Assembly: GCA_003251535.1 (NCBI GenBank)
Contig: QKFD01000112.1
Location: 1-37,432, forward strand
DNA: 37,432 nucleotides
Reading direction: 5' to 3'
DNA from: Chromatiales bacterium
GTDB taxonomy: Bacteria; Pseudomonadota; Gammaproteobacteria; Thiohalomonadales; Thiohalomonadaceae
Below the pieces are notes generated by a model. That model ran no database searches. It was not told the DNA's origin and was given only the letters and a program-made list of their open reading frames with translations. This document shows, piece by piece, positions 23,110 to 28,635 of the stretch (position 1 is its first letter; each line of letters starts with the position of its first letter). Position numbers and translations under genes: made by a program.

Positions 23110-25569
23110 ATGAGACCTCTTCTGCTACTGATAAGAGTCGTTTCGGCGACCATTCTGAGCCTGCTGCTGCTCGGAGCCATAGGGCTCGGGGGCGCGTATT
23201 ATTATTTCGCCCCTCAGCTGCCGTCTATCGAAGTGCTGCGCGATGTCCGGCTCCAAGTCCCGCTCCGGGTCTATAGCCGAGATGGCCTGCTGATGGCCGA
23301 GTTCGGCGAGATGAAGCGCACCCCAGTCAGCTATGACCAGGTACCCCCCCGCCTCATAGAGGCGCTGCTCTCCGCTGAGGATGACCGCTTTTTTAGCCAT
23401 CCCGGCGTCGATTACCAGGGCATGATGCGAGCGGTTCTCAACTTGATCCGTACCGGTGAGCGCTCTCAAGGGGCGAGCACCATCACCATGCAGGTGGCGC
23501 GCAACTTCTTCCTGACCTCAGAGCGGACCTACAAGCGCAAACTCATCGAGGTACTGCTCGCGCTCAAGATCGAGCGAGAACTCTCCAAGCAGGAGATCCT
23601 GGAGCTATATCTCAACAAGATCTATCTCGGTAACCGCGCTTACGGTGTGGCAGAGGCGGCCCGCGTCTACTACGGCAAGGAGCTAGGAGAGCTGGATCTG
23701 GCGGAGATCGCCATGCTGGCAGGGCTACCCAAGGCCCCCTCCACCATCAATCCGGTGGTCAACCCCGATAGAGCCGGGGCCCGCCGCAACTATGTCCTTG
23801 GGCGGATGCGCGAGCTGGGCTTCATCAACGATGAGGAGTTCAAGACCGCCTCCGCGGCCCCAGTGGCCACCCAGGTCCACTACACCCCTATCGAGGTTGA
23901 GGCGCCCTACGTGGCGGAGATGGTCCGCGCCGAGATGCTCAGCCGATTTGGCGACGAGACCTACAGCCACGGCTATAACGTCTACACCACCATCAATCCC
24001 CGCCTCCAACGGGCGGCCAATCGAGCGGTCCGCGGGGGATTGCTGGACTACGACCGGCGCCACGGCTACCGAGGGCCGGAGGAGCATTGGGACCTTGCCG
24101 AGCTGGATGAGCCAGAGCTGCGGCGGCGCCTCGATAAACGGGGCACAGTGGGTGAGCTGCTGCCCGCGGTGGTCACCCGAGTCGATGAACAGGCCATCGA
24201 GGCGCTGCTGCCCGGGGATAGGCGGCTGGAGATCGAGTGGAAGGGGCTCTCCTGGGCCCGGAAATATATCAACACCCTCAGTAGCGGCCCGACCCCCAAA
24301 CGGGCCTCGGACATCCTCGCGGTGGGGGATGTCATCCGCTTGGAGGCGCCGCGCAGCGAGGAGGATATCTGGAAGTTGGCCGAGGTCCCGGCGGTCTCCT
24401 CTGCCCTGGTCTCTCTCAACCCCAACGACGGCGCCATCCATGCGCTGGTCGGTGGTTTCGACTATTACCAGAGCAAGTTCAACCGGGCGACCCAGGCCGA
24501 ACGCCAGCCGGGATCCAACTTCAAGCCCTTCATCTACTCCGCCGCCCTCGCCCACGGCTTCACCCCCGCCAGCCTGATCAACGATGCCCCAGTGGTCTAT
24601 GAGATCCCCGGCTCCGAGCCGTGGCGGCCGGAGAACTATAACGGTCGCTTCTACGGCCCCACCCGCCTGCGGGAGGCGCTGACCCATTCGCGCAATCTGG
24701 TCTCTATCCGCCTGCTACAGGCGGTGGGGGTAGAGACGGCCATCGATCACGTCATCAAATTCGGCTTCGACCGCAGCAAGTTGGCCCCCAACCTCTCCCT
24801 GGCCCTCGGTACCGCCGATGTCACGCCACTGGAGCTGGTGCGGGGCTACGCCGTGCTGGCCAACGGCGGCTACCATGTCGATCCCTACTTCATCGAGCGC
24901 ATCACCGACATCGACGGTAACGACATCGATGAGGCGCATCCGCTGACCGTATGTGAGGCGTGTGAGACGGACCCGGCCACCCCAACGGATCAGCCCCAGC
25001 CGCTCCCGGTCGCCCAGACCACGCCAGCCAACGTCGGCGACAAACCCGCCCCTCCGCCGGCACCGCGGGTGGTGGATGCACGCAACATCTACATGATGAA
25101 CTCCATCATGCAGGACGTGATCACCTACGGTACCGGCCAGCGCGCCAAATCCCTGGGGCGTAGCGACCTAGCCGGCAAGACCGGGACCACCAACGACCAA
25201 AAGGATGCCTGGTTCTCCGGCTTCAATCGGGATCTGGTAACCACCGTCTGGGTCGGCTTTGACAACCCGGTGACCTTGGGTAGTAAAGAGACCGGTGCCC
25301 GCGCCGCACTCCCCATCTGGATCGACTACATGGGGGTCGCCCTCGATGGCGTCCCCGAAAGCACCCTGGCGGAGCCGCCGGGCCTGCTGCGGGTACGGGT
25401 AGATAAGGAGAGCGGCCTGCGCACCAGTGCCGACAATCCCAACGCCATGTTTGAGATCTTCGCCGAAGAGAACCTACCGGAGCAGGAGGCCCCCTACTAC
25501 GCCTCCGGCCCGGCCATCGACATCGGTGGCGGCGATCCCAACCAGACCGTGATAGAACAGCTCTTCTAA
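23110..25569 (+). CDS. mrcA: Penicillin-binding protein 1A (bifunctional)
   Basis: This 819-residue class A penicillin-binding protein polymerises and cross-links peptidoglycan. A membrane anchor (about 5-30) is followed by the GT51 transglycosylase with catalytic Glu90 in EDDRFFSHPG and QGASTITMQVARNF at 120-133. An OB-like insert occupies about 300-420. The transpeptidase has the active Ser469 in PGSNFKPF (SxxK), Ser527-Arg-Asn (SxN) and KTGTT at 690-694. A Pro-rich loop at about 625-655 precedes the KTG motif. It is divergent from pilM, as in many gammaproteobacteria, where the symbol ponA is also used. All catalytic motifs are intact. Confidence 0.96.
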   Translation: MRPLLLLIRVVSATILSLLLLGAIGLGGAYYYFAPQLPSIEVLRDVRLQVPLRVYSRDGLLMAEFGEMKRTPVSYDQVPPRLIEALLSAEDDRFFSHPGVDYQGMMRAVLNLIRTGERSQGASTITMQVARNFFLTSERTYKRKLIEVLLALKIERELSKQEILELYLNKIYLGNRAYGVAEAARVYYGKELGELDLAEIAMLAGLPKAPSTINPVVNPDRAGARRNYVLGRMRELGFINDEEFKTASAAPVATQVHYTPIEVEAPYVAEMVRAEMLSRFGDETYSHGYNVYTTINPRLQRAANRAVRGGLLDYDRRHGYRGPEEHWDLAELDEPELRRRLDKRGTVGELLPAVVTRVDEQAIEALLPGDRRLEIEWKGLSWARKYINTLSSGPTPKRASDILAVGDVIRLEAPRSEEDIWKLAEVPAVSSALVSLNPNDGAIHALVGGFDYYQSKFNRATQAERQPGSNFKPFIYSAALAHGFTPASLINDAPVVYEIPGSEPWRPENYNGRFYGPTRLREALTHSRNLVSIRLLQAVGVETAIDHVIKFGFDRSKLAPNLSLALGTADVTPLELVRGYAVLANGGYHVDPYFIERITDIDGNDIDEAHPLTVCEACETDPATPTDQPQPLPVAQTTPANVGDKPAPPPAPRVVDARNIYMMNSIMQDVITYGTGQRAKSLGRSDLAGKTGTTNDQKDAWFSGFNRDLVTTVWVGFDNPVTLGSKETGARAALPIWIDYMGVALDGVPESTLAEPPGLLRVRVDKESGLRTSADNPNAMFEIFAEENLPEQEAPYYASGPAIDIGGGDPNQTVIEQLF

Positions 25570-26204
25570 TGGCACGCCGAACCCGACGTAGCGCACCGGT
25601 GGAGCGCGATCCCCGCCAAGTGGAGGCCATCGCCCAAGGGGCGGCCCGGCTGATGGCGGAGGATGGCATACGTGATTTTGCCTACGCCAAACGCAAGGCG
25701 GCGGAGCAGCTGGGTCTGGGCCAGACCCGCAGCCTACCGAGCAACACCGAGATCGAGCGGGCACTCGTGGAGTACCAGCGCCTGTTCCGGGCCGATAGCC
25801 AGCCCCAACACCTGCGATCGCTACGCGAACACGCCCTCAACGCCATGGAGCTGCTGGGGCGCTTTGAGCCGCGCCTGGTGGGCCCCGTGCTAACCGGCAC
25901 GGCCGACAACCACTACCCCATCACCCTCCACCTCTTCACCGATCCCGCCGAAGAGGTGGGCTGGTTCCTGGAGGAGCAGCAGATCCCCTATGAATTGGAT
26001 AGCCGGCGGGTCAAATATGAACAGGAGCGGGCCGAGGAGTTTCCGCTCTATCGCTTTATCGCCGGCAACGTCCCGGTTGAACTGACCGTCTTCCCCTACG
26101 ACGGCCTACGCCAGGCCCCTCTCAGCCCCGTGGATGGCAAGCCGATGCGCCGCGCCAATACCCCAACAGTGGCGGAGCTGATCGCAACGAGCGATGGGGG
26201 CTGA
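25569..26204 (+). CDS. Unrecognised conserved-looking protein coupled to mrcA
   Basis: I do not recognise a family with confidence. The 211-residue protein has no signal peptide or membrane segment. The N-terminal part (about 15-75) is helical and basic, AIAQGAARLMAEDGIRDFAYAKRKAAEQ in pattern. The middle has VGPVLTGTADNHYPITLHLF at about 104-123, which recalls the start of nucleotidyltransferase folds (Gly-Thr, then alternating polar residues), but the expected DxD pair is absent. The C-terminal half is acidic then basic (YEQERAEEF, LTVFPYDGL). The start shares one base with the mrcA stop (TAATG), so it is translated from the same transcript. A role tied to the cell wall is possible only by position. 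Confidence 0.7.
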   Translation: MARRTRRSAPVERDPRQVEAIAQGAARLMAEDGIRDFAYAKRKAAEQLGLGQTRSLPSNTEIERALVEYQRLFRADSQPQHLRSLREHALNAMELLGRFEPRLVGPVLTGTADNHYPITLHLFTDPAEEVGWFLEEQQIPYELDSRRVKYEQERAEEFPLYRFIAGNVPVELTVFPYDGLRQAPLSPVDGKPMRRANTPTVAELIATSDGG

Positions 26205-26268: not shown

Positions 26269-27459
26269 TCACCCTGGCTTTCTCCCCCACACGGCAAAGA
26301 GGGGATCGGCCGTGGGGAGCTGGCTGGCATAGGGGTCGTCGGCCGGACGGGGGAGATTACGCACCGACTCACTGGCCAGCTCAGAGAAGCCGGCCTGGGC
26401 CAACCACTCCAGCACCAACCCCATGCGCTCGAACGGATGGAGTTCACTCCAGAGGCGGATCGCCTTGGTGGGAAAGAAGCGATCGGAGAAGGTGATCACC
26501 AGCGGCGCGCCGGGCCGCAGCACCCGATGCAGCTCGGCCAACACCTGTTGTGGCGCCACCAGATACTCCACCGAGGCGCTACAGACCACCCCAGCGAACC
26601 ACCCATCCGGCCAGGGCAGGGCGGTAGCGACATTGAGGTCCTGCACCACCCGTTCACTCAGGGCGGGATTGGCCGCCAACTCATCGGCGTTGAGCCCAAG
26701 TCCGATGACACTCGCCCCCGTCGGTAGATGGGACTCCCAGCTGGCCATCAGATCCAGCAGCCGCCCATCGAGAGGCAGTAGGCGGCGGTAGAGCGCGGTC
26801 AGCTCGGTGCGAGCGGCGGCATCCAGGTGGTGTACCAGCCGCGGCTGGGCATAGAACAGCGAGTCGTCCCGCGGATCCATCCGTTCCAATGCCCCCTCAA
26901 ACAGGAAGCCCCCCTCCCCCTCCGGCAGGGCACCCTGCATCCCAGGCCCCCGCTCCGTCACCACTTGAGGGATATCGTTGCAGCGCCCCCCACGCTCCGG
27001 CTCCTGCGCCAGCAGCTCCGCTACTCGGGCAGTAAGGGTGAGGGGGTAGCGGCACAGCGGGTGGTTAAAGTCTACGGTGATCGCCCCCTCCTCCACGGCC
27101 ACTACCCGCAGCGCCCTGAGATCCCCTTGAAAGGTGTCCCCCACCCCAGGCAACAGGGTACGCGGGAAGAAGCGACCAGGTAGCGGGTGCAGGGCAATGC
27201 CCCGCAGCTCTACAGGAAAACGGGCCCGTGGCACCTTGTGGATCGCTCGGCTATCCCACGGCGCCACCAGCTCACCCGGATCGAAGTGGGCACTTACCTC
27301 GCCACCAACAGGGAGCTGAGCGAGCCGTTCAGCCATATCGCCGGGGAGATAGTCGCGCCAGAGATTGAGCTTGGGTAGCCTCCAGCGATCCCGATGGTGG
27401 CCCCGTGGCCCCTGCCAATCCAGGCGCAGTTCAGCGCTGATCAGGCGGGATGAGTGCAT
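26269..27459 (-). CDS. SlyD-like FKBP domain fused to a SAM methyltransferase
   Basis: This 396-residue protein joins two parts. Residues about 30-145 look like a SlyD-type FKBP prolyl isomerase: DYLPGDMAERLAQLPVGGEV, then HKVPRARF, the long insert-in-flap region and DFNHPLCRYPLTL, close to the SlyD hallmark GNHxLAG. Residues about 220-350 are a class I methyltransferase of the type-11 kind: VIGLGLNADELAANP, VVCSASVEYLVAPQQVLAELHRVLRPG and ITFSDRFFPTKAI. The glycine-rich SAM loop is reduced to GLGLN. The start at 27459 has GGAGGT 6 bases upstream, a strong ribosome site, so the longer frame to 27513 is rejected. It lies 153 bp after the HIT gene on the same strand. The substrate is unknown. 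Confidence 0.75.
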   Translation of the reverse strand: MHSSRLISAELRLDWQGPRGHHRDRWRLPKLNLWRDYLPGDMAERLAQLPVGGEVSAHFDPGELVAPWDSRAIHKVPRARFPVELRGIALHPLPGRFFPRTLLPGVGDTFQGDLRALRVVAVEEGAITVDFNHPLCRYPLTLTARVAELLAQEPERGGRCNDIPQVVTERGPGMQGALPEGEGGFLFEGALERMDPRDDSLFYAQPRLVHHLDAAARTELTALYRRLLPLDGRLLDLMASWESHLPTGASVIGLGLNADELAANPALSERVVQDLNVATALPWPDGWFAGVVCSASVEYLVAPQQVLAELHRVLRPGAPLVITFSDRFFPTKAIRLWSELHPFERMGLVLEWLAQAGFSELASESVRNLPRPADDPYASQLPTADPLFAVWGRKPG

Positions 27460-27612
27460 GGTTTTACCTCCAATAGTGGGGGTTGGGATGCCACCCGCCT
27501 CTGAGAGGGGCAACGCGCCCCCATCGGTTCACCTTCACCCCAGATCGAGAGCCGGCTGGTCAGTTATATATAGACACCGCTCCCCCGCTACGGCCGCCGC
27601 TCGCGGCGACGG

Positions 27613-28635
27613 CTACCCTGCCGCCACCGCAATGGCCGCGGCGATGTCGGTCGCCCCCAACCGCTCATAGTGCCCACGCTCAAATGCCACCACCCCGCCG
27701 GCCATCTCATACCAGGTGGTACCCACCCCACCCGGCGGGAGCGAATAGCTCCCTTGGAAGCGGCGCGGCAGCAACACCATCTGCCCCGGCAGGTAGAGCA
27801 GATGGTAGGGCTGCGGACGCCCATGGAGGGCCTCAAGCGCCGCCCAGGCAGCGGCGCGGTCGGTTAGGCGGATGACCGGCGCGGGATAGGGGGTAGGGCC
27901 CCCCCAGTGGCCCCACGCCTCCCCCAGCACCGGCAAGGGCTGGGCGGGTCGAATCAGGTGGGCGTGGAGGTGGTTGACCGAGGCGAAGGCACCAAAGGAG
28001 TTGTAGGCGATCAGGGCGCCCGGCAGCTGGGTCCCCAGCCGCTCCGCCAGCTGCCACAACCAGTGGTGGTCCGCCTCCATCAACCACTGCGGGCGACCCG
28101 CCTCTCGCTCCGGCACCAGCAACAGATGCCCCTCCACAAAGGGGAATTTGTTGTAGAACAGGTCGGCCGCACGCCCGAGCAGCTGCCCCGCCCACAGCCG
28201 CTCAGGCAGCAAGAAGGGGCGATTAAAATGGAACCCTGTGGCATCAAACGGCGCCTGTAGAGACGCCAGCGAGGTGGCCGTCATGCGGGGGGGACGCAGT
28301 GCCCGCAGAGGGTTAAAACGCGCCTCAAACGGCCCCGCCGCGCGCCGCTCCGCCCCCTGGAGAGAGGCGAGACCACGCTCCAGTAGCTGGGCAAACACCT
28401 GTTGATCATCAGCCGGTCCAGCCGGGGGCTGGCCGGTCGCCACCGCTGCCTCTGCCAGCTGGTGAAAACGGCGCCCCAACGCCTCTCCCAACCGCTGTTG
28501 TAGTGCGGGTTCGGTCAAGGCGTTGGCCAGTACCAGAATAAAGGCCCCCAGCCCCCCTTCGGCCAACATCCGCTCCAGACCCGCGGCAAAGGCATCGGTA
28601 AAGTGGTGGGGATCGGTGAGAGGAGAGTGGTCCAT
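27613..28635 (-). CDS. HIT-superfamily protein, GDP-glucose phosphorylase-like
   Basis: This 340-residue protein has a helical N-terminal part (about 1-110) and a C-terminal HIT-like domain. The active-site stretch VNHLHAHLI (about 219-227) gives the H-L-H-A-H pattern of nucleotidyl transferases and hydrolases. NKFPFVEGHLLLVPE and AYNSFGAFASVNH resemble GDP-D-glucose/GDP-L-galactose phosphorylases (VTC2 and animal C15orf58 type) more than ordinary short HIT proteins. Such enzymes split NDP-sugars with phosphate. The start ATG at 28635 has no clear ribosome site. It follows the DUF58 gene by 53 bp and so likely belongs to the MoxR transcript. The substrate is uncertain; the superfamily call is fairly good. 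Confidence 0.7.
   Translation of the reverse strand: MDHSPLTDPHHFTDAFAAGLERMLAEGGLGAFILVLANALTEPALQQRLGEALGRRFHQLAEAAVATGQPPAGPADDQQVFAQLLERGLASLQGAERRAAGPFEARFNPLRALRPPRMTATSLASLQAPFDATGFHFNRPFLLPERLWAGQLLGRAADLFYNKFPFVEGHLLLVPEREAGRPQWLMEADHHWLWQLAERLGTQLPGALIAYNSFGAFASVNHLHAHLIRPAQPLPVLGEAWGHWGGPTPYPAPVIRLTDRAAAWAALEALHGRPQPYHLLYLPGQMVLLPRRFQGSYSLPPGGVGTTWYEMAGGVVAFERGHYERLGATDIAAAIAVAAG

Follow-up and report, generated by a model that had tools for sequence, protein, structure and literature searches.

A SlyD-like FKBP domain joined to an atypical class I methyltransferase, found mostly in bacteria of dissimilatory sulfur metabolism

SlyD, SlpA and FKBP26 combine an FKBP fold with an insert-in-flap (IF) domain and a DFNHPL strand, and all three features are present in the fusion protein described here. 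Unlike these proteins, the fusion has its active-site tyrosine replaced and a methyltransferase attached, and it has neither a metal-binding tail nor a match to Pfam FKBP_C. Its second half resembles Methyltransf_11-type enzymes (MitM, Hvo_0019, UbiG, NTMT1) in having a Rossmann fold at residues about 187-396 and a Pfam score above cut-off, whereas it differs from them in a motif I of the form LDLMxSWxSHLP with no GxGxG, in G255 at the place of the beta2 acid and in the FKBP that stands in front. The zinc-finger methyltransferases of Desulfobacterota have the same core and motif I, with a zinc finger instead of the FKBP. A third point of comparison is given by the RudS-PhrB-LitR operons, described as light-responsive in the available parts of PMC11417400 and PMC9758184; judged by RudS, photolyase or MerR-B12, the fusion gene appears to lie in or beside such clusters in 16 of 77 surveyed neighbourhoods, and the copy studied here does not. 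In the accessible text of PMC5241685 photolyase and cyclopropane synthase of Vibrio are responsive to blue light, and in that of PMC7074977 CbiX, a glutathione peroxidase and photolyases go up in Rhodobacter capsulatus under singlet oxygen. The word FKBP has no occurrence in the available parts of PMC11417400, PMC5241685 and PMC7074977, nor has methyltransferase in those of PMC9758184, and no FKBP-methyltransferase fusion was recognised among the papers listed by searches of the open-licence PMC literature.

The gene lies in a stretch of 37,432 nucleotides from a Chromatiales bacterium, which we refer to as the window (Table 1). A preliminary description, which did not give the strand, had proposed a SlyD-like half and a methyltransferase in one frame behind a good ribosome site; both points hold, as the minus strand carries a single open frame of 396 codons (ATG at 27459, stop at 26269) in which both halves are supported, preceded at 7 bases by GGAGGT. 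The two halves have GC3 values of 0.71 and 0.78, near those of the neighbouring genes (0.78-0.81), and thus nothing points to a recent joining. At 154 bases upstream on the same strand is a gene for a HIT-domain protein (27613-28635, minus) with an additional N-terminal part, and at 25569-26204 on the plus strand is one for a 211-residue protein with no Pfam family above cut-off and no NCBIfam match. Structure prediction of the full chain by AlphaFold2, run with 47 aligned family members, gave one rigid chain (pLDDT 94.3, pTM 0.93).

Table 1. Positions of the fusion gene and its parts in the window
Feature	Residues	Position in window	Strand	Basis
FKBP(SlyD)-methyltransferase fusion, whole gene	396 aa	26269..27459	minus	open frame, AlphaFold2 model
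Shine-Dalgarno GGAGGT, last G 7 bases from ATG		27466..27471	minus	
SlyD-type FKBP half with insert-in-flap domain	1-156	26992..27459	minus	sequence and model
IF-domain motif GRFFP (family GRFYP)	95-99	27163..27177	minus	
DFNHPL, SlyD signature strand	130-135	27055..27072	minus	
Linker with GGRCND and RGPGMQ (G173 47/47)	157-186	26902..26991	minus	
Class I methyltransferase half	187-396	26272..26901	minus	Pfam, fold matches
Altered SAM motif I, LDLMASWESHLP	235-246	26722..26757	minus	
GLGLN, strand beta2 and loop (G255 47/47), not the SAM glycine loop	253-257	26689..26703	minus	

The N-terminal half folds as an FKBP in the models, being predicted with a pLDDT of 95.0 when residues 1-156 were modelled alone. 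All 23 of the 23 Foldseek matches of this part in the PDB at E<=0.001 were FKBP-family chains, the top one being T. thermophilus SlyD with a TM of up to 0.66. This was further supported by sequence searches: the single sequence matched T. thermophilus SlyD (4odm/3cgm) along residues 20-155 (E 7e-6), and a profile made from the N-terminal half matched it at E 3.9e-12. The identity to the T. thermophilus protein is 26-27% over about 153 aligned columns (TM 0.62-0.66). Together with the DFNHPL strand these matches bear out the SlyD-type assignment. None of the curated FKBP models reached its cut-off on the fusion protein; FKBP26_IF scored 15.6 of the 27 bits required and was matched at E<=0.01 in one of 47 members. 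In the IF domain, G95, R96 and P99 are present in 47/47 aligned members. Because GRF[YF]P and W[SG]E[LM]H had served as search patterns, conservation in this alignment (A2) is biased in their favour. We therefore recounted it in 31 members found by profile, three of them (L083, L085, L087) identical to proteins already in A2, and found G95, R96, Y98 and P99 in 31/31.

The active-site tyrosine of SlyD, which we take to be Tyr63 of the T. thermophilus protein, falls by alignment on V65 of the fusion. This column holds L, V, T, I, F, P, Q or C among the 47 aligned members, with tyrosine in none of them and in 2 of the 31 profile-found ones; the neighbouring acid (D24) is kept as Asp or Glu in 45/47. 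Proline catalysis is therefore doubtful, and we rejected prolyl isomerase as the working activity. The preliminary description had suggested a protein methyltransferase that presents proline-containing substrates: the second part of this proposal is not supported, while a protein may still be the substrate because the insert-in-flap (chaperone) part of SlyD is kept.

By family as well as by fold, the C-terminal half belongs to the class I methyltransferases, as had been proposed. Pfam Methyltransf_11 scored 34.1 bits against a cut-off of 21.2 over residues 247-322, and was matched at E<=0.01 in all 47 members. The VIA fold matches span residues 187-396 only, so that the lack of FKBP chains among them carries no weight, and for this reason the FKBP half was compared separately by Foldseek. 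Hvo_0019 was the best VIA match (Z 17.6, rmsd 3.1, 187 aligned) and the next had a Z of 16.1; many others, ranging from UbiG to protein alpha-N-methyltransferases (Z about 15.5), lie no more than about 1-2 Z units lower, and Bud23 is also among them. The substrate cannot be named from this shared fold alone.

The preliminary description had read GLGLN as a reduced SAM loop and for this reason held the activity to be uncertain. The doubt was right and the reason was wrong: in a profile alignment the MitM motif VLDLGCGVG falls on LDLMASWES, and the model places beta1 at 233-237 and beta2 at 250-255, so that GLGLN belongs to beta2 and had to be rejected as the SAM loop, and motif I is the altered sequence listed in Table 1. 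It is motif I itself that has lost its glycines. M238 and S243 are found in 47/47 members, H244 in 46/47 and S240 in 42/47 (Gly in 4/47), and the variable residue 242 is Gly in 0/47; a glycine-rich motif I (GxGxG) is absent from the window protein and from the 47-member alignment. An acidic residue ending beta2 is likewise absent, the position as set by the MitM profile alignment being G255 in 47/47. Retained are D236 (47/47) and D274 (43/47), and K332 and W337 are present in 31/31 profile-found fused members. Relatives that have no FKBP carry the same motif I, as LDLMSSWVSHLP, LDLMASWDSHIP or LDLMCGADSHLP, and consequently the change in motif I is older than the fusion or independent of it. 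Methyl transfer by the fusion protein is putative, and use of SAM is our guess.

The preliminary description had suggested searching other genomes for the same fusion and its neighbours. Both halves were in one open frame in 46 of 48 loci found in named genomes, mostly metagenome-assembled genomes of Gamma- and Betaproteobacteria and Desulfobacterota; the two exceptions are L068, split by a frameshift, and L071, cut by a contig end. At least four phyla contain this architecture. Full-length members were present in 3 of 39 near relatives (own genome counted) and the fusion in 18 of 274 genomes of a class sample, three more of which had the methyltransferase alone. A phylum sample made up mostly of other lineages gave 2 full-length members in 398 genomes plus 6 partial matches, and a Desulfobacterota sample 12 one-frame and 2 frameshifted copies in 198, plus 22 methyltransferase matches with no FKBP part. 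Two further samples of 90 genomes, from the phylum of a Chlorobiota-titled genome and from that of a Nitrospiraceae genome, had the fusion in 2 and 3, respectively.

In a tree of 95 methyltransferase halves (midpoint root, no outgroup) the fused members form a single clade, on one side of a branch with an SH-aLRT of 93, below the 95 mark; the sole FKBP-less row on this side is the truncated L071. The zinc-finger form is the neighbouring clade, with an SH-aLRT of 99 on its own branch. From the midpoint-rooted tree we infer that the methyltransferase came first and that the FKBP was added later. Exchange of the gene across phyla is suggested by Desulfobulbaceae rows that stand among gammaproteobacterial ones and by Thioploca, which is placed among desulfobacterotal rows. 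As the fusion recurs across phyla and its members group together, it is real and no product of read-through. Of the two outcomes that the preliminary description named as fatal to its proposal, an N-terminal part of another fold and a read-through artefact, neither was borne out. The sister architecture was seen in Desulfobacterota (L117, L118, L120-L122), where the same methyltransferase lacks FKBP and carries an Ogr/Delta-like zinc finger at its C-terminus; the zinc-finger Pfam was above cut-off only in L122 and sub-threshold in L117, L118 and L120, and L119 of the same group is cut by a contig end. The core also occurs alone (L092-L094, L097-L102). Three relatives (L068, L115, L116) are frameshifted copies, by assembly error or decay. 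We considered L115 and L116 as a natural two-gene version and rejected this, because the frames break at different places.

Genomes with the fusion are strongly enriched in dsrA, the gene of dissimilatory sulfite reductase (model TIGR02064). In the class sample dsrA was found in 17/18 carriers versus 77/256 non-carriers (p 5.8e-8) and, counted by genus, in 12/13 versus 62/209 (p 9.4e-6); relatedness is not fully removed by such tests, and the genus-level count reduces this concern but does not end it. The Desulfobacterota sample gave 14/14 carriers versus 86/184 others (p 4.3e-5). Among the genomes behind the named loci 41 of 46 had dsrA (39 above the curated cut-off), as had 4 of 5 further carriers, so that with overlaps removed 72 of 79 distinct carrier genomes have dsrA and 7 do not. 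Many carrier genomes are incomplete assemblies, and aprA was present in 3 of 6 dsrA-negative carriers tested. The FKBP-less matches in Desulfobacterota were also enriched (17/22, p 0.007), and for this reason the methyltransferase, and not the fusion, may be what is linked to dsrA in that sample; dsrA was found in 0 of the 3 FKBP-less members of the class sample. No class-sample carrier had the fusion gene and dsrA on one contig, and the association may reflect ecology (sulfidic habitats, gene exchange) and not a pathway. NiFe hydrogenase was enriched as well (12/18 carriers versus 45/256, class sample, p 1.6e-5). This enrichment is weaker than that of dsrA, and we therefore rejected a main role in SlyD-type delivery of nickel to hydrogenase; dsrA was enriched even among hydrogenase-free genomes (5/6 versus 49/211, p 0.004). 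Sulfur genes next to the fusion are few but real: DsrC-like genes in three separate lineagemates (L042, L053, L067), ATP sulfurylase (sat) in L031, L052 and L056, and APS kinase in L049.

A second association emerged from the surroundings (8 kb) of 77 fusion copies, all distinct proteins. RudS, photolyase or MerR-B12 was present in 16/77 of these neighbourhoods versus 0/20 arbitrary regions from five carrier genomes and 1/20 regions round dsrA (pooled control 1/40, p 0.005), with the reservation that the neighbour profiles were built from the test regions themselves, which favours detection there. Across the tree, the light-gene neighbours arise at seven or more separate positions. The core neighbours were RudS (TudS+DUF1722; 11, one of them, in L030, only a fragment), photolyase (10) and MerR-B12 (6), followed by PNPOx-like proteins (6), Cfa, CbiX, CrtI-like proteins and DCC1 (5 each), and more rarely glutathione peroxidase, lipocalin and NmrA/DUF2867 (4 each). 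PNPOx-like genes were also found in 2/20 dsrA regions and CrtI in 1/20 arbitrary regions, and these two associations are thus weak. In 61/77 neighbourhoods none of RudS, photolyase or MerR-B12 was found within 8 kb, and there are no light genes around the copy in the window.

In L033, L034 and L043 a small HNH protein stands between RudS and the fusion gene, all three co-directional with ends overlapping or close, and in L039 (Desulfobacteraceae) RudS, photolyase and fusion run in the same direction. In L125, L126 and L131, MerR-B12 and photolyase come first; RudS and glutathione peroxidase follow on the opposite strand, and next come the fusion and, behind it, lipocalin. CbiX lies in between in two of these loci. 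The small protein (L033 5666-5959, L034 1687-2028, L043 4674-5036) matched Pfam HNH_3 above cut-off in L033, and those of L034 and L043 were matched to it by sequence. A different setting was seen in eight betaproteobacterial loci (L040, L045, L051, L057, L058, L060, L066, L073), where the fusion follows lptD-surA, after which pdxA-ksgA is the expected order; this setting is also absent at the window copy.

Our preferred explanation, held tentatively as one possibility among several, is that the fusion is a cytosolic two-domain accessory enzyme of photo-oxidative stress in dissimilatory sulfur bacteria, with the SlyD-like half holding the substrate. A single event would have placed a SlyD-like FKBP in front of an atypical class I methyltransferase of older origin, and the product would belong to, or work with, the light or photo-oxidative stress response. 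The SlyD-like half would have given up prolyl isomerisation, its insert-in-flap domain holding a loosened protein segment or a partner, while the methyltransferase half would bind SAM or a relative through the glycine-poor motif I and act on the held protein or a cofactor that this protein carries. The stress role and the loss of isomerase activity are our readings of the two associations and of the replaced tyrosine, respectively, and a cytosolic location is likely as no signal peptide was visible by eye; SAM use and the identity of the substrate are guesses. Since FKBP-less relatives keep the same motif I, the substrate of the methyltransferase may not need the FKBP. A narrower form, to which we give a low probability, is a light-induced, client-holding methyltransferase that protects or repairs the sirohaem/Fe-S enzymes with which these bacteria carry out dissimilatory sulfur metabolism, as a photo-damage repair particular to Dsr bacteria. 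Sirohaem would here be a possible photosensitiser, and CbiX, which adjoins the fusion in five loci, is a sirohaem-type chelatase.

It is also conceivable, if somewhat unlikely, that the enzyme methylates a small molecule (a lipid, quinone, carotenoid or tetrapyrrole) and that the FKBP half is a stabilising or partner-docking lid. The existence of the core with the same motif I and no FKBP, alone or with the zinc finger, would fit this, as would the invariant K332 and W337 and the CrtI-like flavoenzymes, Cfa and CbiX that each adjoin the fusion in five loci, but the conservation of the GRFYP motif is stricter than a lid requires. Clearly unlikely is an RNA (tRNA) methyltransferase with protein-type adaptor domains. 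Its best VIA match, Hvo_0019, is a partner of the Trm112 activator and Bud23 matches too; the commonest neighbour, RudS, is a tRNA 4-thiouridine desulfidase according to the accessible part of PMC11417400, and the gene divergent from the fusion in L003 and L041 is, as we take it, tRNA methylthiotransferase-like. The fold matches are, however, scattered over unrelated methyltransferases, protein alpha-N-methyltransferases included, and no RNA-binding domain was seen in domain scans of the window protein or the members. Very unlikely, in our judgement, is a SAM-free pseudo-enzyme, a scaffold that would act in the sulfur pathway as chaperone of its Fe-S or sirohaem proteins: the lost motif I glycines and beta2 acid (M238 and G255, both invariant) speak for it, as does the binding of Fe-S assembly proteins by E. 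coli and H. pylori SlyD (available part of PMC10653786), while the retention of D236, D274 and many polar pocket residues over very distant members speaks against it. Finally, the chance that a sequencing error or read-through joins two genes is practically nil, since in spite of the three frameshifted relatives the 46 one-frame loci, the 18 class-sample carriers and the differing split positions already refute it.

Taken together, a chaperone fold is here combined with a methyltransferase of unusual SAM motif, in one clade that spans sulfate reducers and sulfur oxidisers, and the associations of this fusion with dsrA and with light operons are new. Whether SAM can be bound in the absence of GxGxG could be examined on the conserved, glycine-free motif I. 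Should both associations hold, they open to testing a question that is seldom asked, namely how bacteria with abundant sirohaem and Fe-S enzymes withstand light and oxygen. That the relatives occur mostly in bacteria of sulfur chemistry, and sometimes beside genes for the repair of light damage, points to an undescribed stress-protection enzyme.
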